Assembly (NCBI RefSeq): GCF_900880625.1
Contig: NZ_CAAHFB010000001.1
Coordinates: forward strand, 992,001 to 1,056,000
Direction of reading: 5' to 3'
DNA from: Halorhabdus rudnickae
GTDB lineage: Archaea > Halobacteriota > Halobacteria > Halobacteriales > Haloarculaceae
DNA: 64,000 nt
In this document: positions 32,429-43,110 of the stretch, one piece after another
Layout of the letters: each line of letters starts with the position of its first letter
Position numbering within the stretch: position 1 is the first letter of the stretch
Made by a program: the position numbers and the translations under genes
The notes under the pieces: generated by a model
What the model was told of the DNA's origin: nothing
Seen by the model: only the letters and a program-made list of their open reading frames with translations
Database searches by the model: none

Positions 32429-33880
32429 ATGTCAGAGCAAGAACTCGGAATCACGACGAGCAAAGAACACGAAACCGGAGAATGGTACGCCGAACTGGTC
32501 CAGAAGGCCGGCCTGGCCGACTACGCCCCGATGGGCGGGTTCATCGTTACCCGCCCCCGCGGGTACGCTATCTGGGAGCGCCTCAAGAACCATCTCGACG
32601 GCTGGTTCAAACAGACCGGTGTCCAGAACGCGTATTTCCCGCTTTTCATTCCCGAGCCGTACCTCGAAAAAGAGAAAGACATCGTCGAAGGGTTCGATCC
32701 CGAGGTGGCGTGGGTCACGAAGGGGGGCTACGACGAACTTGAGGAGCGTCTTGCAGTCCGCCCTACCAGCGAGAGCATCATCACGCCCTTCCTCGCACAG
32801 TGGACTCGCTCGCACCGTGACCTCCCGATCCGGGTCAACCAGTGGTGTAGCGTCGTCCGGTGGGAGGCCACCGAGACCAAACCGTTCTTCCGCACCAAAG
32901 AGTTCCTCTGGCAAGAGGGTCACACCGCCCACCACGACGCTGAGGACGCTATCGAGGAGATGGAGACGCGCCTCGATCAGTACGAGCGCCTCTACGAGGA
33001 GGTGCTGGCGATGCCCGTCCTGATCGGTCGCAAACCCGAACACGACAAATTCCCCGGTGCCCACACCACGACGTCCGTCGAAGCGTTGATGCCCGACGGC
33101 AAATCCGTCCAGGGCGGAACCTCCCACTATCTGGGGACCTCCTTCGCGGAGGCCTACGACGTGACCTACGTCGACGAGGACGAGCAAGAGCGGACGGCCC
33201 ACACGACCTCCTGGGGGCTGTCCTGGCGGGCGCTGGGCGCGCTGTTTATGACCCACAGCGACGACCAGGGACTGGTCTTGCCGCCGACGCTCGCCGAGAC
33301 CCAGGTCGTGATCGTTCCCATCTGGGACGAGGAAAGCAAGGACGACGTGCTGGAATACGCCGAGGCAGTCGAGGCAGATCTCCGAGAGGCAGGCGTTCGC
33401 GTCGAACTCGACGACCGCGATCACCGCAATCCCGGGTTCAAATACAACGAACACGAACTCAACGGCGTCCCGCTGCGGATCGAAGTCGGTTCCTACGAGG
33501 TCGACGACGATGAACTCACGCTCGTCCACCGACCCGACGGCGAGGAGCTCACGGTCGATCGAGAGGGCGTCGCCGACACCGTCGAAGAACACCTCGATAC
33601 CGTCTTCGCGAAACTCTACGCCAGTGCCGAGGAAACCCTGGAGGGAGAGATCCGCGAGGCCGAGTCCCGCGAGGAGATCCTCGGCACCATCGGCCAGCAC
33701 GGCGGGTACGTCAAGTGTGGCTGGTGCGGTGACGAGGATTGTGAGGAGCCGATCAAGGACGCGATCGCGGCCGAGATCGTGATGGTCCCGAAGGACCGCG
33801 ACGAAGAGCCAATCCACGACGAATGTGCGATGTGTGGGGAGGAGGCCGAAGAGACGGCCTACTTCGCAAAGACCTATTGA
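32429..33880 (+). CDS. proS: Prolyl-tRNA synthetase
   Basis: 483-residue class II aminoacyl-tRNA synthetase of the archaeal/eukaryotic type. VRPTSESIITPFLAQW (motif 1/2 region), FFRTKEFLWQEGHTAHH and the glycine-rich motif 3 (GTSHYLGTSFAEAYDV, AHTTSWGLSWRALGALF) are clear. The C-terminal zinc-binding domain has CGWCGDEDC and CAMCGEEA pairs and ends in KTY, an almost invariant terminal Tyr. Its last 57 bases are repeated, diverged, 192 bp downstream. Confidence 0.95.
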   Translation: MSEQELGITTSKEHETGEWYAELVQKAGLADYAPMGGFIVTRPRGYAIWERLKNHLDGWFKQTGVQNAYFPLFIPEPYLEKEKDIVEGFDPEVAWVTKGGYDELEERLAVRPTSESIITPFLAQWTRSHRDLPIRVNQWCSVVRWEATETKPFFRTKEFLWQEGHTAHHDAEDAIEEMETRLDQYERLYEEVLAMPVLIGRKPEHDKFPGAHTTTSVEALMPDGKSVQGGTSHYLGTSFAEAYDVTYVDEDEQERTAHTTSWGLSWRALGALFMTHSDDQGLVLPPTLAETQVVIVPIWDEESKDDVLEYAEAVEADLREAGVRVELDDRDHRNPGFKYNEHELNGVPLRIEVGSYEVDDDELTLVHRPDGEELTVDREGVADTVEEHLDTVFAKLYASAEETLEGEIREAESREEILGTIGQHGGYVKCGWCGDEDCEEPIKDAIAAEIVMVPKDRDEEPIHDECAMCGEEAEETAYFAKTY

Positions 33881-33884
33881 GCGT

Positions 33885-33946
33885 ACTGCGCGAGCACAGC
33901 GAGCGCAGTTTCCCCGCGACAAACAGCGTGAGTCGCGGCTCTTTTC
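33885..33946 (+). terminator. Double hairpin with T tract after proS (copy 1)
   Basis: ACTGCGC (33885-33891) pairs with GCGCAGT (33903-33909); CCGCGAC (33914-33920) pairs with GTCGCGG (33932-33938), followed at once by CTCTTTTC. This resembles an intrinsic terminator of proS. Confidence 0.55.
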
Positions 33947-34076
33947 ATCGACGTTTTGCGACGAGTGGGTCCGAGCGAACGGAGTGAGCGAGGAACCCCG
34001 AGGAGGAAAAGGTCGTGTGCGATTTGCGGTGAAGAGGCGGTTGAGACGGCCTACTTCGCAAAGACCTATTGAGCGT

Positions 34077-34138
34077 ACTGCGCGAGCATAGCGAGCGCAG
34101 TTTCCCCGCGACGAACGGCGTGAGTCGCGGCCCTTTTC
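34077..34138 (+). terminator. Second copy of the double hairpin
   Basis: Same two stems as copy 1, intact, with substitutions confined to the loops and tail (CCCTTTTC). On the opposite strand it also lies just past the dapE stop, so it may separate converging transcripts. Confidence 0.5.
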
Positions 34139-34213
34139 ATCGACGTTTTGCGACGAGTGGGTCCGAGCGAACGGAGTGAGCGAGGAACCCCGAGGAGGAA
34201 AAGGTCGTGCCGT

Positions 34214-35305
34214 TCAGTCAGTGACGAACCGTTCGACAGCCGCAGTGAGTATGTCCGCCGCCCGCCGGACGTCCCGTCGGTCGACGTATTCCCGCGGGGA
34301 GTGTGCCACTGGCCCCTCGTCGTCGGCCAGCACGCCGGGACCGAAGACGACCGTCGGCGCGAGCGTGGCAAACTGCGCGGCCTCCGTCGCCGCACCGAAC
34401 GGCCGGACCGTCCCACCACTCGCCTCACGAAGAACTTCGACGATCCGCGCCTCGGGGTCGGTCTCGAAGGCTTCGGGAAACGGCGTATCCGGGCGGATCA
34501 GGTCCACGTTGACGGTAGCGTCCGCGGGCAACGCATCCCGCAGGTAGGTTTGCAGAGATGCCGGAAATTCCGTGCTGCGCTCGGGCGGCACGCTCCGCCG
34601 GTCGAAGGTGACCGTCACCTCGGCCGGCACCTGATTGGGTGCCTCCCCGCCCTCGATCATCGTGGGCGTTAGCGTCGGAGATCCCAGCGTGTCGTGCTCG
34701 CCGGGACCGTGTGTATCGTCGTAGCGATCCATCGCGTCGATCACCGGCCCCACCGCCCGCATCGCGTTCGTCCCGTCGCTCGGATCGCTGGCGTGGGCGC
34801 TCTCACCGCCCAGCGTGATCTCCCCCTCGAACTGACCGCGGGCGGCGTAGCAAACGTCCAGCCCCGTCGGCTCGCCGACGATCGCGGCGTCAACGTCAGT
34901 ATCGAGCGTCTCTACGAGATGTGCCGCGCCGGTCTGAGTCGTTTCCTCGTCGGGCGTGACTGCAAGGGTGACGCGCCCATCGGCGGGATCAGCTCGGAGA
35001 AACGCCCCGACCATCGCCGCCAGCGGCCCCTTCGCGTCACAGGCACCGCGTCCCCGGACGATCTCGCCGTCGCGTTCGTACGGAACGTGCGGTGGTACTG
35101 TATCGAGGTGTGTGTTGAACAAAAGGCGGGGGCTGTCGCCAGCGTCGCCACCACGTCGCGCGATAACGTTGCCACCCTCGTCGACGCGGACGTTCACGCC
35201 CGCATCTTCGAGCGTCTCGACGAGCAGCGATCGCATCGAATCGACCGACTCGTGGGACGGCGTCCGGACCGCGCGTTGGTGAAAGTCGAGAACGTCGACG
35301 GCCAT
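34214..35305 (-). CDS. dapE: Succinyl-diaminopimelate desuccinylase (M20 family)
   Basis: Zinc-dependent hydrolase releasing succinate from N-succinyl-LL-diaminopimelate in lysine synthesis. 363 residues. The metal motif FNTHLDTVPPH, GRGACDAKGPLAAMVGA with the bridging Asp, and PDEETTQTGA with the catalytic Glu pair are visible; GEPTGLDV follows. It shares one base with lysA (TGATG), so the two are translationally coupled. Without context an ArgE/CPG2-type peptidase would be possible; the lysA neighbour and dapA/B/D beyond favour DapE. Confidence 0.88.
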   Translation of the reverse strand: MAVDVLDFHQRAVRTPSHESVDSMRSLLVETLEDAGVNVRVDEGGNVIARRGGDAGDSPRLLFNTHLDTVPPHVPYERDGEIVRGRGACDAKGPLAAMVGAFLRADPADGRVTLAVTPDEETTQTGAAHLVETLDTDVDAAIVGEPTGLDVCYAARGQFEGEITLGGESAHASDPSDGTNAMRAVGPVIDAMDRYDDTHGPGEHDTLGSPTLTPTMIEGGEAPNQVPAEVTVTFDRRSVPPERSTEFPASLQTYLRDALPADATVNVDLIRPDTPFPEAFETDPEARIVEVLREASGGTVRPFGAATEAAQFATLAPTVVFGPGVLADDEGPVAHSPREYVDRRDVRRAADILTAAVERFVTD

Positions 35306-36564
35306 CACTCGTGCTCCGGGTCGGGCGCACCAGGGGCATCGGCTTCGACGCGCGTGACGTCGGCCATCGTCTCCCGGCGACGGACGACCCGCGCGCCGTC
35401 ACCGTCGATCGCCACTTCGGCAGGCCGAGGCTGTGAGTGGAAGTTGTTCGCAAGTTCGTACCCGTAGGCCCCGGCGTTGCCGATCGCGAGAACGTCCTCC
35501 CGTTCGGGACGGGAGATCGGTCGGTCAGTGGCGAAGACATCGGCGCTGGTACAGCAAGGACCGCCGACCGAGACCGGTTCGGGGTCTCGCCCAGGCGCTG
35601 AGACGTTCCGGATCGGATGATAGGCGTCGAACATCGCCGGCCGGATCAGCGTCGATAGCGAGGCATCGACGCCGACCACGGTCGCTTCCGGCGTCTCCTT
35701 GACCGTGTTGACGGTCGTGAGGATCAACTCGGCGTCGGCGACAATGTACCGCCCTGGTTCGAACTTCGGGGTCGCATCGAGGTCGCCGATCGCACCACGG
35801 ACCGTCTCGGCCACGCCTTGGAGATCGAGTGGTGGTTCGTCCTCGCGATAGGGGACACCGAATCCACCGCCGAAATCGACGAACTCCAGATCGCCGTCGC
35901 CGACCTCCCGAGCCAGGTCGGCTACCTTGCCCAGCGCACGGGCGTGGTCCTCGACTTCGTCGGTGAGAACGCCACTGCCCACGTGGGCATGAAGGCCGAC
36001 GAGATCGAAGCACTCCCGGAGGTCGTCGGCGAGTTCGGGAACGCGCTCGTAGGGAATTCCGAACTTGGCGTCCTTGCCCGTCGCAACCTTCTCGTGATGG
36101 CCTGTGCCGATACCGGGATTGATCCGGATGGCAACGCGACCGTCGTACCCCCGCGCCTGGAGGCGATCGAACGTATCCTCGGCACCACCGGTAATCGTGA
36201 GTCCTGGGTTGTCCCCAGCGAGTTCGACCGCGTAATCGAGGTCTGCGTCGGGCGGATTGACGGCGGTGTACTGGAGCGTATTCGGGTCAGCGCCTGCCTC
36301 GATTGCCCGCTTCAGTTCGCCACGGGCGGCACACTCGATGGTCGCGCCGCTGTCGAGTAACGTCGAGAGGACGGCTCGACCCGTGTGGGCCTTCGCGGCG
36401 TACATCACCTCGGCGTCTGGAAAGGCCGCGTCGAACCGGCGGTAGTTTGCGGCGACACGGTCGGGATCGAGGACGTACAGCGGCGTCTCGTACTCGGCGG
36501 CCAGATCGAGTAGTCGATCGTGGTCCCAGTCGGCCAGACGCCGGACCGGCGGCGAGTGACTCAT
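35305..36564 (-). CDS. lysA: Diaminopimelate decarboxylase
   Basis: PLP enzyme converting meso-diaminopimelate to lysine. 419 residues from the ATG at 36564 (a GTG 12 bases upstream is less likely). EVMYAAKAHTGRAVLS carries the Schiff-base Lys, and GGAEDTFDRLQ, VGSGV and the later GPCCTSADVF with the substrate-site Cys are conserved. It begins what is left of the downstream half of the dap operon; dapF is not adjacent. The promoter would lie in the 670-base region now shared with the inserted GH31 gene. Confidence 0.92.
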   Translation of the reverse strand: MSHSPPVRRLADWDHDRLLDLAAEYETPLYVLDPDRVAANYRRFDAAFPDAEVMYAAKAHTGRAVLSTLLDSGATIECAARGELKRAIEAGADPNTLQYTAVNPPDADLDYAVELAGDNPGLTITGGAEDTFDRLQARGYDGRVAIRINPGIGTGHHEKVATGKDAKFGIPYERVPELADDLRECFDLVGLHAHVGSGVLTDEVEDHARALGKVADLAREVGDGDLEFVDFGGGFGVPYREDEPPLDLQGVAETVRGAIGDLDATPKFEPGRYIVADAELILTTVNTVKETPEATVVGVDASLSTLIRPAMFDAYHPIRNVSAPGRDPEPVSVGGPCCTSADVFATDRPISRPEREDVLAIGNAGAYGYELANNFHSQPRPAEVAIDGDGARVVRRRETMADVTRVEADAPGAPDPEHE

Positions 36565-36722
36565 TAGCGAAGACACGGGAAGGTCGATAACAAGGATTGC
36601 GCTTCGGCGTTTCGCGCTCTTGATGGTCGACAGAGAGTAAACGCGACTCCGAAAACCAACTATCCAACGTCAGAGACCGTTGGTTGTGTGCTGGTGTCCG
36701 TTGTCGATCACCTCTCTCCGAC

Positions 36723-36946
36723 ATGGAACAGGGCAGAGATGTCGCATACGGAGCTGAGTAAGCGCGAATTGCCATTGACTACGGAGCCGTCGACAGTCTG
36801 CTTGTTTCCGACGCCCGACCGTCAGCGGAGCTTTGTGAGCTGGAGGCTTCGACGATCGACCAGGGCGGTGAGTGTCTCGTCGTGCCGGCTGACACAGATA
36901 GGGTACAGTTCGATGGCGCCAGTGGCAACGATGCCGCTGCCGGGAT
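36723..36946 (+). pseudogene. Remnant of an eRF1-domain-3-like gene (release factor/Vms1 type)
   Basis: Frame 36732 reads GRDVAYGAE, then a TAA stop, then ARIAIDYGAVDSLLVSD, ELCELEASTIDQGGECLVVP and DTDRVQFDGASG. The pattern YG-x-x-x-V-x-x-A-x-x-x-GAVD-x-LLVSD ... GG-x-x-x-VVP-DT matches the C-terminal domain of archaeal release factor aRF1 and baeRF/Vms1 relatives. The in-frame stop and loss of the C-terminal end show that it is dead. It lies in the DNA separating lysA from GH31. Confidence 0.55.
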
Positions 36947-36964
36947 GTCTTTTTCCACCGGGGA

Positions 36965-37075
36965 AATCCCCACATCTATTTATTTAATTCCATCCCCCAC
37001 TATATTTTATCACTATTATGTCGGCCAGAAGTTTATTATTCCCCGGCGAAATGATTCCAACTGAAATGTGTAAAG
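36965..37075. promoter_or_regulatory. AT-rich island upstream of GH31
   Basis: TATTTATTTAATT, CTATATTTTATCAC and TTTATTATT fall within about 80 bases, far below local GC content. Several TATA-like elements are present, but none at the usual 27 bases from the GH31 start candidates, implying a leader of 150-200 bases. A foreign origin of this DNA is possible. Confidence 0.45.
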
Positions 37076-37236
37076 AACAAGAATTTCGGTAGAGACTGAA
37101 TCATAGTGGTAACTGAATCCATGGCAACTGGTACGTACAGATCACTGGATCGGATCCCGGGATCTGTGCGATGAACCACCGTGGACCGTCGCCCACCGAA
37201 CTGCCCTCCGAACACATACCACCACCGACACACCCA

Positions 37237-40071
37237 ATGTTTGACGACAATCCAAACGACTCCGGCTTCCATCCGGTCGGACGCCGCACAGTGTTGAAAT
37301 CAACGGCCGCCCTTCTAGCAGGGAGCGCTCTCACATCGGCCCCCGCATCGGCCCACCACTTCGGTTCGAAGGTCCACTACGAACCGCAGGTCGACGAGGA
37401 CGAGCTCATGCAATTGTCCGTTGAAGGCCATGAAATTCTCGATGACGGAGTGAAACTCGACCTCGGGAGTCACGAAGGATACATTCGCCTGTTCAGTGAC
37501 ACGCTCGCTCGCGTTTCCATCGTGGACCCCGGTGAGGAGGAATACGAATCCCGAGGAATCAACAACGGACGCGACGACTGGGATACCCCGGACTTTCGTG
37601 TCGAAACGAGTTCCGAAACGATCGCCATCGAAACCGACACCATCGCTGTCGAAATCAATACTGAACTCTTCGGCGTCCGGTTCCTCAACGAGGACGGGAC
37701 CGTCGTCAACGAGGACTATCTAGACAAGGGGTCGTCGGGATACGTACCGTCTCCCGAGCGCGACGGGACAGCATCCGACTCGACGCCAACGACGCCGTCA
37801 TCGTATGCGTATTACAAAAACGAGAGCGACCTGAAGTCGGGGTCGTCGGGATACGGCTCAGCCACGCAAAACGATGTCGAGATGACCGATCCGACCCCGA
37901 ACGAGCCGCTTCCCTACGTGTACAAGAAGGCCGACGAAGACGAGGCCTTCTACGGGTTCGGCGAGCAGCCCGAACTCACCCTCGACCAGCGCGGGAAGAA
38001 ACTCGAAAACTGGAACACGGATCAGTACGGGTACTTCTACACGAACGACTACGTCTACACCTCGATCCCGTTCTTCGTCGGCCTGAAGGACGCTGGTGCC
38101 TACGGTATCTTCTTCGACAACCCGCACCATACGGTGTTTCATACACCCAAAGTGGCAAACCCCGAGGGCGTCGAAGAGACCTACGACACCAACGCCGGCG
38201 AGGACTACTACTATTTCGTCGGCGACGGTGGACAGTTGACGTACTACTTCGCCTACGGGCCGGAGATCAGCGACGTGCTCGACAGCTACACGAGCCTGAC
38301 TGGGACGATCAACCTGCCACCCAAGTGGGCGATGGGTTTCCACCAGAGCAAGTGGGAGTACAGCCCCGAGGAACTCGTCGAAGTGCCACAGCGGTACCGG
38401 GAGGAAGGAATACCACTGGACGCAATGCACTTCGACATCGGCTATATGGACAACTACCGCGTCTTCAGTATTCAGGACACCCATCGGGATGCGCTGCAGT
38501 CACTCAGTGATGAACTACCGGAGCTCAAGACAGTCGCCGTCAACGACCCGGGCGTCGCAGTAGACCAAGCGGTTGACATCGATGGTGACGGGGAGCTCGA
38601 ACCGTACGACCCGTATCTCGAAGGGACTGCCAACGACTACTGGACCAAGGACGCTAACGGCGAGCCCTTCAAAGCGAGAGTCTGGCCCGACGTCGCGGTG
38701 TGGCCCGACTTCTCCCGTTCGGAGGTTCGAAGCTGGTGGGCCGAACAACACGACGTGTTGTTCGACGCGGGCTTCGACGGGGTGAAAAACGATATGGGGG
38801 AACCGTCGATCTTCCAGCAAAACGGTAGTTACGACTGGACGATGCCAGTGGATAACGTCCACGGAACGGGAGACGACACGATGTTACACGAGGAGTACCA
38901 CAACATGTACGGGTTCGACTACGCGCGGGCGGCACGCGAGTCGTTCGACCTCTTCAAGCCCGACGACCGTCCGTTTCTGTTGAACCGGAACCTCTACGCT
39001 GGCGGTCAGCGGTACGCGGCTATCTGGACCGGCGACTGCGTGAGTGAATGGGCCCACCTTCAGATGCAGATACCGATGATGCTGAACATGGGACTGTCCG
39101 GGCTGGCATTTTGCGGGCACGATGTCGGTGGATTCGTCGGGCGGCCGTCTCCCGAGCTATTCAAGCGCTGGACAGCGGTGGGTGCGTTCATCCCCTTTTT
39201 CCGGAACCACACGGACACCCACAAGAAGCAAGACCCGGACCTCCCGCGCAATCAACACCCCTGGACGTTCGGCGAGGAAGCGGTGGATATCACGAGGAAG
39301 TACACCGAGCTGCGATACAAACTACTGCCGTACCTCTACAACGAGTTCCGGGATTCCTCGGAGAGTGGAAAGCCCATCTTCCAACCGCTCGTCTACCAGT
39401 TCCAGAACGACGACGAGGTCCGCGACATCGCAGACCAGTTTCTCTTCGGCGACGACATGCTACTCGCACCGGTCGTCGAAGCGGGCGTGACCGAGCGCGA
39501 TGTCTATCTCCCGGACGGTGAGACGTGGGTCGACTTCTGGAACAACGAGGTGTACGACGGCGGCCAGTGGATGACCGTCGAAGTCCCCATCGACCACCTG
39601 CCGATCTACGTTCGCAAGGACTCGATCATCCCGACGCGCGAAGTGCAACAGTACACGGGAGAAAAGCCGCTTACGACGCTTCAACTAAACACCTATCTCG
39701 ACGAAGAGGCTTCGTACTCGTTCTACGAGGACGACGGTGCGACCACCGGTTTCGAGGATGGCGAGTACAACGTGACGAACTTCACCATCACGGAGACGGA
39801 AAAAGGCGTCGTCACCTTCGACGCTCGGGCAGAGGTTCGGAACTACGACGACTCGCAGCTGTCGTCGTACCTGTTGGGACTCGACCGTTCGAGAGCGCCC
39901 AAAAAGGTCCAAGCAGGGCCGACGATGTACGACGAAGTCGCCGCTGACACGGTCGAAGACACGGTGAACTCCTTTGCCTACAGCGAAGACGAGAGCGCCG
40001 TGCTGGTCCACATTCCAGCCGGCGAGGAGGACAGCGTGACGCTCTTTTTCGACGAACACGATCGACAGTAG
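37237..40071 (+). CDS. Tat-exported GH31 family alpha-glucosidase-like enzyme
   Basis: 944 residues from the ATG at 37237; an ATG at 37171 would add 22 proline-rich residues. The signal peptide has the twin-arginine GRRTVLKS (R16, R17), a hydrophobic core and a likely cleavage after APASA at residue 39. The GH31 nucleophile lies in DGVKNDMGEP (about D519) and the acid/base Asp in WTGDCVSEW (about D600). The C-terminus is the GH31 beta-sandwich (YEDDGATTGFEDGEY). It probably hydrolyses alpha-linked glucosides, or alpha-xylosides, outside the cell after Tat export. It stands in the middle of the minus-strand dap operon. Confidence 0.88.
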   Translation: MFDDNPNDSGFHPVGRRTVLKSTAALLAGSALTSAPASAHHFGSKVHYEPQVDEDELMQLSVEGHEILDDGVKLDLGSHEGYIRLFSDTLARVSIVDPGEEEYESRGINNGRDDWDTPDFRVETSSETIAIETDTIAVEINTELFGVRFLNEDGTVVNEDYLDKGSSGYVPSPERDGTASDSTPTTPSSYAYYKNESDLKSGSSGYGSATQNDVEMTDPTPNEPLPYVYKKADEDEAFYGFGEQPELTLDQRGKKLENWNTDQYGYFYTNDYVYTSIPFFVGLKDAGAYGIFFDNPHHTVFHTPKVANPEGVEETYDTNAGEDYYYFVGDGGQLTYYFAYGPEISDVLDSYTSLTGTINLPPKWAMGFHQSKWEYSPEELVEVPQRYREEGIPLDAMHFDIGYMDNYRVFSIQDTHRDALQSLSDELPELKTVAVNDPGVAVDQAVDIDGDGELEPYDPYLEGTANDYWTKDANGEPFKARVWPDVAVWPDFSRSEVRSWWAEQHDVLFDAGFDGVKNDMGEPSIFQQNGSYDWTMPVDNVHGTGDDTMLHEEYHNMYGFDYARAARESFDLFKPDDRPFLLNRNLYAGGQRYAAIWTGDCVSEWAHLQMQIPMMLNMGLSGLAFCGHDVGGFVGRPSPELFKRWTAVGAFIPFFRNHTDTHKKQDPDLPRNQHPWTFGEEAVDITRKYTELRYKLLPYLYNEFRDSSESGKPIFQPLVYQFQNDDEVRDIADQFLFGDDMLLAPVVEAGVTERDVYLPDGETWVDFWNNEVYDGGQWMTVEVPIDHLPIYVRKDSIIPTREVQQYTGEKPLTTLQLNTYLDEEASYSFYEDDGATTGFEDGEYNVTNFTITETEKGVVTFDARAEVRNYDDSQLSSYLLGLDRSRAPKKVQAGPTMYDEVAADTVEDTVNSFAYSEDESAVLVHIPAGEEDSVTLFFDEHDRQ

Positions 40072-40257
40072 GCGATCGCTGCTACTGTCTCGTGTATCAG
40101 CTTCCACTGTCGACAATCCCATCACACCGGCTGGTGACCCCGACTGACGAGGGGAGATTCTCGAAAAAACAGCCGGGTAGGTGATCGTGCCTACGAGTTC
40201 CCATTGCCCCGCGTGGGGGGACAAACATACTCCCCACTTCCACAACGTGTTTCCGTC
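40072..40257. other. GH31-dapD convergent intergenic region
   Basis: 186 bases between the stop codons of convergent genes. No ORF or clear T-tract terminator was recognised beyond short imperfect repeats such as GGGGACAAAC and TCTCGAAAAAACAG (the latter carries an A run that would read as T6 on the minus strand). Confidence 0.4.
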
Positions 40258-41085
40258 TCACTCCCGGAGCGCGTCCTCTCGCTCGGCCCCGTCCAGCGTC
40301 TCCTCCTCGACGTGGGTCGCCACCACGGCGGGCTTGTAGGCCCCGCCCTCGAACAGATCGTGCTCGCCGACGGAGGACTCGACGAAACGCTGGAAGGCCC
40401 GCCGCTCGGGTGGGAGGTGTCCGTAGACGATCTCCTCGTCGACCAGATCGTACACCGGGATCCGGGGTGACAGCAACGTGTTCTCCCCGACGATCGAACC
40501 CTCGCCGACGACGAACCCCGAGGTGACCCGACTGCCAGCACCCAGCGCGACGCCGTCCTCGACGATCACCGGCGCGTCCTCGACGGGTTCGAGCACACCG
40601 CCGATGACGGTGTTCGCGCCGAGTTTCACGTCGTCGCCGATCTGTGCACACGAGCCGACCACGTCGTTGGAGTCGACCAAGGTTCCGTCGCCGACGTGTG
40701 CGCCGACGTTGACGAAGGACGGACTCATCATGATCGCGTCACTGCCGACGTACGCGCCCCGTCGGAGGACCGTCCCGTCGGGCGTGTTTCGAGTTCCTCG
40801 ATCCCCGAGGTCGGCGGTGTCCCGGAGCGGGAGGACGTCGTGGTAGGTCACGTCGCCGTACTCCCGGGCCTGGGTCTCCCGGAGGGTGAAGTTCAGCAGG
40901 ATGCCCTGCTTGACCCACTCGTTTGCTTCCCAGGTGCCGTCTTGCTTCTCTGCGGCCCGTACCTCGCCGGCTTCCAGGGCTTCGAGGAACTGATCGAGCG
41001 TGGCCTGCTGGTTCTCGGTGAGATCAGCGGGGGTAAGGTCGTCCGATCGTTCCCAGAGCGTCTCAACGTCGGCTTTCAGGCTCAT
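40258..41085 (-). CDS. dapD: Tetrahydrodipicolinate N-succinyltransferase
   Basis: Succinylates tetrahydrodipicolinate in the succinylase branch of lysine synthesis. 275 residues. Left-handed beta-helix with GAYVGSDAIMMSPSFVNVGA, then GTLVDSNDVVGSCAQIGDD and the following repeated hexapeptides, all characteristic of DapD. It starts one base after the dapB stop. Its transcript would run into GH31 on the opposite strand, the insertion point of the operon. Confidence 0.93.
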   Translation of the reverse strand: MSLKADVETLWERSDDLTPADLTENQQATLDQFLEALEAGEVRAAEKQDGTWEANEWVKQGILLNFTLRETQAREYGDVTYHDVLPLRDTADLGDRGTRNTPDGTVLRRGAYVGSDAIMMSPSFVNVGAHVGDGTLVDSNDVVGSCAQIGDDVKLGANTVIGGVLEPVEDAPVIVEDGVALGAGSRVTSGFVVGEGSIVGENTLLSPRIPVYDLVDEEIVYGHLPPERRAFQRFVESSVGEHDLFEGGAYKPAVVATHVEEETLDGAEREDALRE

Positions 41086-41086
41086 G

Positions 41087-41848
41087 TCATCCCTCGATTA
41101 CGTCCCCGAAGGTATAGAATCCCGGATCCCGGCCAGCGAGCCAGACCGCGGCGTCGAGTGCCCCCGCGGCGAAGACCCCGCGGTCCTCCGCGCGGTGGGT
41201 GAGCGTCAGCACCTCGTCGTTGCCGGCAAACATGAGTTCGTGCTCGCCGCGAACGTCGCCGGCCCGCCGGACGTGGACGCCGACCTCGCCGTCCTCGCGC
41301 GGGTCGATACCCTCCCGGCCGTAAACTTCCTCGAAGTCGTCACGCTCCTCAGCAAGTGCGTCGAGCAGTGTCTTCGCTGTCCCGCTGGGCGCATCCTGCT
41401 TGTCATTGTGATGGGTCTCTGTGAGTTCGACGTCGTAGCCTGGCAGCGCTTCTGCGGCCGCCCGGACGGTCGACAGCAGTGCCTGAATCCCGCGGGCGAA
41501 ATTCGCGGCCTTCAGGACTGCCACGTCCTCGCTTGCACGCGTCAGGCTGTCGAGCTGGCCGTCCTCGAAGCCCGTGGTGCCAGTCACGAGTGGGACGGCC
41601 GCCGCCGCACAGGCGTCGGCGAATGCGACGGTCGCCTCGGGGACCGAGAAATCGACGATCGCGTCCGGTTCGTGTGTCGCCAGCAACGCCCCGATGTCTT
41701 CCGGGTCGTGGACCGGCTTGTCGGCGACCGTTTCCGTGTCTGTGTCATCCACGGCGAATACCACAGTGACGTCTTCCCGATCGCCCGCCGTCTCGATGAC
41801 TGTCTCCCCCATGCGTCCAGCCGCCCCGGTGACGCCGATTCGTCTCAT
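41087..41848 (-). CDS. dapB: 4-hydroxy-tetrahydrodipicolinate reductase
   Basis: NAD(P)H-dependent second step of lysine synthesis. 253 residues. GVTGAAGRMGETVIE is the cofactor-binding loop; ETHHNDKQDAPSGTAKTL contains the catalytic His pair and Lys; TGTTG is the substrate loop. The ATG at 41848 is chosen because the motif starts at residue 4 and the longer frame overlaps dapA. It lies between dapA and dapD. Confidence 0.93.
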   Translation of the reverse strand: MRRIGVTGAAGRMGETVIETAGDREDVTVVFAVDDTDTETVADKPVHDPEDIGALLATHEPDAIVDFSVPEATVAFADACAAAAVPLVTGTTGFEDGQLDSLTRASEDVAVLKAANFARGIQALLSTVRAAAEALPGYDVELTETHHNDKQDAPSGTAKTLLDALAEERDDFEEVYGREGIDPREDGEVGVHVRRAGDVRGEHELMFAGNDEVLTLTHRAEDRGVFAAGALDAAVWLAGRDPGFYTFGDVIEG

Positions 41849-41879
41849 GTCCTCCGCTCCGTGCTCGGCCCCGGAATGA

Positions 41880-42803
41880 CTATCGGTCCGTCGTCTCGAC
41901 TGGCGTCTCGATGTCGATCGGGTCGAGATCATCGAGAACGTCTCGGAGATACTGACGGTGCTCTTCAGATAGTCGCGTCAGTGGCGGTCGGAGTTCCGGC
42001 GAGCCCAGATCCCGGATCGCCATCGCCTCTTTGATCGGAATGGGATTAGTCTCGACGAACAGCGCCCGCGAGAGCGGACCGAGTTCGTGATGCAACTCGC
42101 GGGCGCGTTCGAAGTCCCCCGCGAGTGCCGCCCCGACCATCGCGCAGGTCCGGACGGGTTCGACGTTTGCGACGACACTGATCGCGCCGCGCGCGCCGAT
42201 CGACAGCATCGACAGCGTCAGCGGGTCGTCGCCCGAGAGAACGGTAAAGTCTTTCTCGCGGGTACGTTCGACGATTTCGGTGATCTGTCCCATATCGCCC
42301 GAGGCAGCTTTGAACGCCTGAATGTTCTCGTGGTCGGCCAATGCGACGGCCGTGTCGGGCGCGATGTTCCGCCCGGTGCGGGACGGAACGTTGTAGACGA
42401 TCTGTGGAAGGTCGATCTCGTCGGCGATCGTCAGGTAATGCTCGCGGAGCCCGCGCTGTTCGGGCTTGTTGTAGTACGGCGAGATGAGCAGGAGGGCGTC
42501 CGCGCCGGCGTCGCGTGCTCGCCGGGAGAGCGACAGCGCCTCGCGGGTGTTGTTGCTTCCGGTGCCAGCGATCACGGGCACGTCTTCGAGAGCGTCGGCG
42601 ACGGCTTCGATCACCTCGACGTGCTCGTCGTGGCTGAGCGTGGCGCTCTCGCCGGTCGATCCGACAGGGACGACCCCGTCGACGCCAGCGGCTTCGAGTC
42701 GCCGGGCGTTGGCCCGCAGTTGGTCGAAGTCGATGCTTCCGTCCGCGGCGAAGGGCGTCGTCATCGCGGGATAGACGCCCTCGAACAGTGGTTGTGGTGG
42801 CAT
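41880..42803 (-). CDS. dapA: 4-hydroxy-tetrahydrodipicolinate synthase
   Basis: Condenses pyruvate with aspartate semialdehyde, the entry of the lysine pathway. 307 residues. GSTGESATLSHDEH is the substrate-binding loop, PYYNKPEQRGL contains the catalytic Tyr, VYNVPSRTGRN follows, and the Schiff-base Lys lies in AFKAASGDMG. The ATG at 42803 matches homologues; the longer frame adds residues that do not look coding. First gene of dapABD; it reads away from the kinase gene. Confidence 0.93.
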   Translation of the reverse strand: MPPQPLFEGVYPAMTTPFAADGSIDFDQLRANARRLEAAGVDGVVPVGSTGESATLSHDEHVEVIEAVADALEDVPVIAGTGSNNTREALSLSRRARDAGADALLLISPYYNKPEQRGLREHYLTIADEIDLPQIVYNVPSRTGRNIAPDTAVALADHENIQAFKAASGDMGQITEIVERTREKDFTVLSGDDPLTLSMLSIGARGAISVVANVEPVRTCAMVGAALAGDFERARELHHELGPLSRALFVETNPIPIKEAMAIRDLGSPELRPPLTRLSEEHRQYLRDVLDDLDPIDIETPVETTDR

Positions 42804-43110
42804 TGATGTGATCGGGATGCTGGGTGATTGACGCGCAACACCAAAAAACCGGCCCGGAACGGGGTCGCTACGCTCGCCCCGAGCCACTCAGAGACGCTTC
42901 AGTTTCGGAACTTGTAGCCATAGACTGGCTACCCGCCCGCTCGCCACCCACACACGGGACTGTCCGGACCCGGCCCGCGATTGTGGTGACGACGTCATGT
43001 GTCTACCCCCACTGCGCGAGGACTTATGGATTGTGTTCAGAGGGTGTCTCGGGCATATGAGTTTCTGCGAGACAGTTATTGCTCCTGAAAACGGGGCCAG
43101 TACAGTCATA
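42804..43110. other. Intergenic region between dapA and the kinase gene
   Basis: No gene recognised. Contains a CGGGG...CCCCG stem around 42855-42876 and a 6-bp stem GTAGCC-ATAGACT-GGCTAC near 42914-42932. The minus-strand GGTTTTTTGG around 42840-42849 is a weak promoter candidate for dapA. Confidence 0.4.

Follow-up and report, generated by a model that had tools for sequence, protein, structure and literature searches.

A GH31 gene between dapD and lysA, and a variant LysA in the absence of DapF, at the lysine locus of Halorhabdus rudnickae

The closest described counterpart of the locus considered here is the lysine gene cluster dapA-dapB-dapD-lysA-dapF-dapE, as present for instance in Natrinema gari J7-2 (PMC10433800). 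The LysA protein of Thermotoga maritima binds the distal amino group of its substrate by means of residue Glu315, and the E315T variant of this enzyme loses most of its DAP activity and prefers 2-aminopimelate, which carries no distal amino group, while remaining D-specific (PMC8277567). Additionally, isotope labelling of Haloarcula hispanica was interpreted as a dehydrogenase pathway, for which no gene has been identified (PMC10433800, PMC1963480).

The window analysed in this study is a stretch of 64,000 nucleotides from Halorhabdus rudnickae (G000), which belongs to a set of seven Halorhabdus genomes (G000 to G006) that also includes H. amylolytica (G001). The lysine genes of the window correspond to the N. 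gari J7-2 cluster in gene set, strand and order except for dapF, and differ from it by a GH31 gene in the middle of the cluster, by the lack of dapF and by variant forms of LysA and DapE. An earlier note on this DNA had described dapA, dapB, dapD, lysA and dapE on the minus strand with a plus-strand GH31 gene between them, and this observation was confirmed (Table 1), whereas its description of the genes as forming the expected pathway was not upheld: dapF, a usual member of the lysine clusters of haloarchaea, is absent genome-wide, and LysA is a variant. The GH31 gene is the only substantial gene between dapD and lysA, the remaining open reading frames being overlapping or shadow frames. The lysA reading frame extends over positions 35305-36576 of the minus strand, with a GTG codon at 36576, from which LysA residues are numbered here, and a conserved ATG at 36564.

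Table 1. Features of the lysine locus of H. rudnickae (positions within the window).
Feature	Position	Strand	Evidence
dapA	41880-42887	minus	PF00701
dapB	41087-41932	minus	PF01113, PF05173
dapD	40258-41085	minus	PF14805, NF008808
Spacer from GH31 stop to dapD stop	40072-40257		CCCCACGCGGGG inverted repeat, conserved with H. amylolytica
Predicted GH31 alpha-glycosidase gene with Tat signal	37237-40071 (ORF opens at 37171)	plus	Pfam GH31 domains
AT-rich region upstream of GH31 gene, common to H. amylolytica	36972-37236	plus	blastn, GC profile
Segment unique to this genome, separating the putative lysA promoter from the region upstream of GH31	36613-36971		genus comparison
Decayed aRF1/eRF1-like gene fragment, C-terminal part	36724-36913	plus	78.8% nucleotide identity to L176
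Putative lysA promoter element CAATCCTTGTTA, about 27 bp ahead of the ATG	36588-36599	minus	one match per genome in seven of seven genus genomes
lysA, type B, with Thr343 replacing the substrate-binding Glu	35305-36564	minus	TIGR01048 above cut-off; residue comparison
dapE, Gln159	34214-35308	minus	NF006402 above cut-off; residue comparison

The surroundings of the cluster vary within the genus. A glycosyltransferase/CofC-like gene lies between dapE and proS in the other members and is missing in H. rudnickae (window positions 33880-34214) and H. amylolytica. The dapE gene of G002 is shortened to about 46 codons next to an intact lysA gene (L034, 8425-8562). Moreover, a short element (GACCGAAGGGAGTGAGCGCC...) follows directly after the dapD stop codon in G001, G004 and G005 (L033, L036 and L037); its end repeats the final bases of dapD, and it is absent from G000 and G006.

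The protein deduced from the GH31 gene contains the catalytic domain PF01055 (E=1e-103; 347 bits against a cut-off of 23.5) along with the Pfam domains PF21365 and PF13802, and the Tat motif GRRTVLKS was found, in agreement with the previously proposed Tat export of the product. The start codon is most likely the internal ATG at position 37237, because the respective methionine is conserved in Haloarcula pellucida and the nucleotide similarity to this species starts at position 37220. The segments FDGVKNDMGEP and WTGDCVSEW align with the conserved Asp-bearing motifs of maltase-glucoamylase, and both catalytic Asp residues are located within conserved motifs, as is characteristic of the GH31 family; a corresponding enzyme activity is predicted. 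The protein shares 91% identity with its counterpart in H. amylolytica and 81% with that of Haloarcula pellucida, the closest relative outside the genus, where the gene resides in an unrelated setting. Relatives with 50-81% identity occur in Haloarcula, Natrinema, Halostagnicola, Halogranum and other genera, all in other gene contexts, and none of the closest relatives in other haloarchaea is situated near dap genes. In the GH31 tree, the pair from H. rudnickae and H. amylolytica is nested with Haloarcula pellucida (support 100/100), and the distribution of the gene across the haloarchaea is patchy. An examination of GC content and codon use across 36.6-40.2 kb, as suggested in the earlier note, gave a divided result: the GC content of the GH31 gene is low (58.8% versus 62.9 +/- 2.8%), but its codon use is ordinary, with no foreign signature (rank 37 of 73 genes).

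The gene order dapABD-GH31-lysA-dapE was detected in two of the seven Halorhabdus genomes, namely H. rudnickae and H. amylolytica. Two further genomes contain empty sites, with a dapD-lysA spacer of 64 bp in G002 and 53 bp in G003, and in the other three (G004-G006) lysA-dapE is located behind secD, 1.2 to 1.8 Mb away from dapABD. In most other haloarchaeal families sampled, the genes dapABD-lysA(-dapF)-dapE were kept together. Since dapD directly neighbours lysA in G002, in G003 and in most other families sampled, the arrangement with GH31 is regarded as derived and limited to H. rudnickae and H. amylolytica. Among the 293 genomes sampled across the order, the same arrangement was not seen in distant haloarchaea, the sole other GH31 gene beside dap genes being that of H. 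amylolytica. The comparison with these sister genomes, and in particular the empty sites in G002 and G003, supports the proposed insertion, and the GH31 gene between dapD and lysA is regarded as genuinely inserted DNA from haloarchaea.

A tree of seven proteins placed G002 and G003 outside a group comprising G000/G001 and G004-G006 (ultrafast bootstrap 88), and because of this basal position the adjacency of dapD and lysA is likely the state of the genus. The single-gene tree of CPSF conflicts with this topology, as G000 and G001 group with G002 and G003 (99/92). According to an alternative that we regard as unlikely, dapD and lysA were not ancestrally adjacent in Halorhabdus; instead, a separate lysA-dapE pair came to lie beside dapD by rearrangement in one lineage, and the newly formed junction gained or lost GH31. 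In many genera of this family, lysA is likewise separated from dapD, so that the adjacency in G002 and G003 could be secondary; moreover, most close genera contain lysA-dapE away from dapABD with the same standalone promoter element, and the CPSF tree unites all four genomes with dapD-lysA linkage. This alternative is opposed by the basal position of G002 and G003 in the concatenated tree and by the secD-lysA context of G004-G006, which was not seen in other genera. The GH31 gene could also be older in the genus and have been lost elsewhere.

Traces of integrase or tRNA-type attachment, which the earlier note had proposed to look for, were not found, and the interval does not have the properties of a genomic island: no integrase or transposase reading frame is present between dapD and lysA, no tRNA gene within the 64-kb window, and no direct repeats bracket the insert, around which only short chance repeats occur. 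The AT-rich island is evident from a GC content of 52-53% at positions 36750-37500, compared with 62% for the window. The AT-rich DNA ahead of the GH31 gene is conserved in H. amylolytica (ATAATAAACTTCT...ATAAAATATAGTG), and positions 36972-40300 form a single blastn block with this species at 89.6% identity, while the adjacent segment of about 360 bp (36613-36971) matched neither H. amylolytica nor any other member of the genus. The dead release-factor-like fragment is likewise real and of the aRF1/eRF1 type. Part of positions 36762-36971 shares 69% identity over 55 aa with the C-terminal portion of a G019 protein of the aRF1 type, the parent protein of 380 aa exceeding the TIGR03676 aRF1 cut-off and containing eRF1 domains; at the nucleotide level, the fragment aligns with L176 over 193 nt. 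A second copy of the release-factor sequence was not found in this genome.

The AT-rich stretch accompanies GH31 in both species, whereas the eRF1 fragment occurs only in H. rudnickae and is absent from H. amylolytica; it is therefore a separate change, and the two cannot be assigned to a single event. The related explanation that 36.6-40.2 kb represents one genomic island, with GH31, the eRF1 fragment and the AT-rich DNA arriving jointly, draws on the position of the three parts side by side and on their lower GC content relative to the neighbouring genes. It is largely refuted and extremely improbable, as H. amylolytica has the rest of the interval without the eRF1 segment, and as integrase, tRNA gene and repeats are all absent.

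The region upstream of lysA contains the 12-base motif SAAYBCTTGTTA. Each of the seven genus genomes has a single match to this motif, always located about 27 bp (at about -30) before lysA, whatever lies upstream of the gene; a reversed-pattern control yielded one or two matches per genome. Approximately 44 bp before the lysA ATG are nearly identical in the empty site of G003 and in both filled sites. The region just before lysA is similar in outline in the three species with relocated lysA, and its core is also found in several other genera. The position of the element would suit a leaderless archaeal promoter. A scan for bacterial promoters yielded one match, which is at chance level and, given the bacterial model, uninformative for an archaeal host. 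The possibility that the element is a lysine regulon signal was rejected, as it has no other occurrence in the genus genomes.

These observations bear on the interpretation given in the earlier note, in which a functional dapABD-lysA-dapE operon was split and lysA took a new promoter from the inserted DNA. This scenario gains from the adjacency of dapD and lysA in G002, G003 and other families, and from the fact that the DNA upstream of lysA beyond about position 36613 is new in this genome. We nevertheless regard it as very unlikely, because the 44 bp before lysA are shared by the empty site of G003 and both filled sites, and because the core element is present at relocated lysA genes and in other genera and, within the genus, has a single occurrence per genome. 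The same upstream sequence in empty and filled sites, and in outline at relocated sites, argues against a newly acquired promoter, and it indicates that lysA probably already formed a separate transcription unit when the insertion took place; an operon in which lysA lacks a promoter of its own is not what the unique, conserved element suggests. Accordingly, the adjacency was interrupted, but the term split operon overstates the case, since the lysA element probably predates the insert. Of the former interpretation, the insertion therefore stands and the new promoter does not.

With good confidence, we favour a joint explanation in which GH31 was inserted into the dapD-lysA spacer, lysA had a pre-existing promoter and the junction was broken independently in G004-G006. 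A haloarchaeal GH31 gene would have entered the short spacer between dapABD and lysA-dapE along with the AT-rich DNA upstream of it. This would have taken place in the ancestor shared by H. rudnickae and H. amylolytica, or somewhat earlier, and the gene would have been retained as an independent unit that encodes a secreted enzyme cleaving sugars. The lysA gene would have kept its promoter just upstream of the start codon, and the insertion would have been tolerable as lysine synthesis would not rely on read-through from dapD. In the G004-G006 clade, the same junction would have been broken independently by relocation of lysA-dapE. Since lysA would already have had its own promoter, the insertion probably broke nothing essential. 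The lack of a mobile-element trace and the conflicting CPSF tree count against this joint explanation. Taken alone, the insertion is a minor and ordinary case of genome remodelling, of use mainly as a caution against equating neighbouring pathway genes with a single operon.

The main point of interest is the relation between LysA and DapF, which covers several families. No DapF protein (PF01678) above the cut-off was detected in the seven genus genomes, and DapF is also missing from several other genera. The weak PF01678 matches that were examined as hidden DapF proteins were rejected, as they represent PhzF or proline racemase proteins. DAP dehydrogenase Ddh (PF16654) was rejected as a substitute for DapF, being absent from 39 of 39 relatives searched with a positive Corynebacterium control. 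The LysA protein of the window scores 317 bits and thus above the TIGR01048 equivalog cut-off of 297.9. It belongs to a monophyletic clade (100/100), here termed type B, that is common to the genomes lacking dapF and spans the families f1, f5, f6, f7 and f10. Type B was assigned by at least 67% identity to the window LysA, and motif residues were directly checked in 38 type B and 14 ordinary (type A) proteins. Residue 343 is Thr in all 38 type B proteins, and Glu in the 14 type A proteins and in bacterial structures.

A survey of 116 haloarchaeal genomes that are at least 90% complete yielded 26 genomes with type B LysA, none of which encodes DapF above the cut-off, and 89 genomes with type A LysA, all of which do; one genome contains neither LysA type. 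LysA type and DapF presence thus match one-to-one in the 115 genomes with lysA, as an association among genomes that are not independent. An exception comes from a smaller set, in which G021 has an intact dapF gene directly upstream of type B lysA (C40; L234, 1084-3336); this genome is plausibly an intermediate state and also a real exception. Haloarcula hispanica ATCC 33960 (G147) has type B LysA and no DapF in our scan, which disagrees with the report of a conserved dapF in this species (PMC10433800). DapE varies in parallel: all 25 genomes with type B LysA have Gln at residue 159 and all 10 genomes with DapF have Arg at this position, although lysA and dapE often move together. Some type B genomes (G007, G014 and G034) contain no close relative of dapE.

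The match between LysA and DapF suggests a diaminopimelate route whose final part runs without an epimerase. The substrate of type B LysA is predicted to lack a free distal amino group, as in N-succinyl-DAP, thereby bypassing DapF. We tentatively suggest, at somewhat less than an even chance, that a large haloarchaeal group, to which Halorhabdus and Haloarcula hispanica belong, synthesises lysine without an epimerase. In this simplest reading, type B LysA would act on a succinylated intermediate, most likely N-succinyl-DAP, before DapE, which would then liberate lysine, so that free, symmetric LL-DAP would not arise and DapF would be unneeded. In a near variant of this reading, type B LysA would decarboxylate LL-DAP directly. 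With respect to the stereochemistry, either the D preference of type B LysA would have changed or a transaminase would make the D centre. If true, the epimerase-free reading would explain why the Haloarcula hispanica labelling was read as a dehydrogenase pathway although no Ddh gene is known for it.

Alternatively, type B LysA may be a meso-DAP decarboxylase of the usual kind, with DapF replaced by an epimerase that has escaped recognition, which we consider rather doubtful. Some of these genomes encode PhzF and proline racemase, which are relatives of the DapF fold; type B LysA still exceeds the TIGR01048 cut-off, and DapF and type B LysA occur together in G021. A search for a new epimerase among the conserved neighbours of type B lysA gave no apparent candidate, the usual partner being dapE, and no conserved neighbour other than dapE suggests a replacement. 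Furthermore, an unrelated epimerase does not account for the consistent replacement of Glu by Thr in all 38 LysA proteins, and the same change abolishes most DAP activity in Thermotoga LysA (PMC8277567). The LysA/DapF pattern is testable with existing haloarchaeal genetics.

The GH31 protein shares the full TIM-barrel along with the N- and C-terminal GH31 domains of the alpha-glucosidases (MalA, NF040948; PDB 6JR6, 2G3M and others). It differs from MalA in belonging to a Tat-exported haloarchaeal subgroup, with 386 bits against the NF040948 equivalog cut-off of 800, and its role as a glycosidase is putative. With respect to the diaminopimelate decarboxylases of TIGR01048, type B LysA keeps the PLP-binding Lys62, Cys342 and the arginines of the EPGR and RP motifs that contact the distal carboxylate, but the Glu of its CE motif, which binds the distal amino group, is replaced by Thr, and Tyr316, Tyr379, Asn380 and Arg382 are exchanged for Phe, Phe, His and Gln, respectively. 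The exchange at the site of the distal amino group is identical to that in Thermotoga maritima LysA E315T (PMC8277567), which is an engineered single change, whereas type B LysA is a natural protein with further changes.
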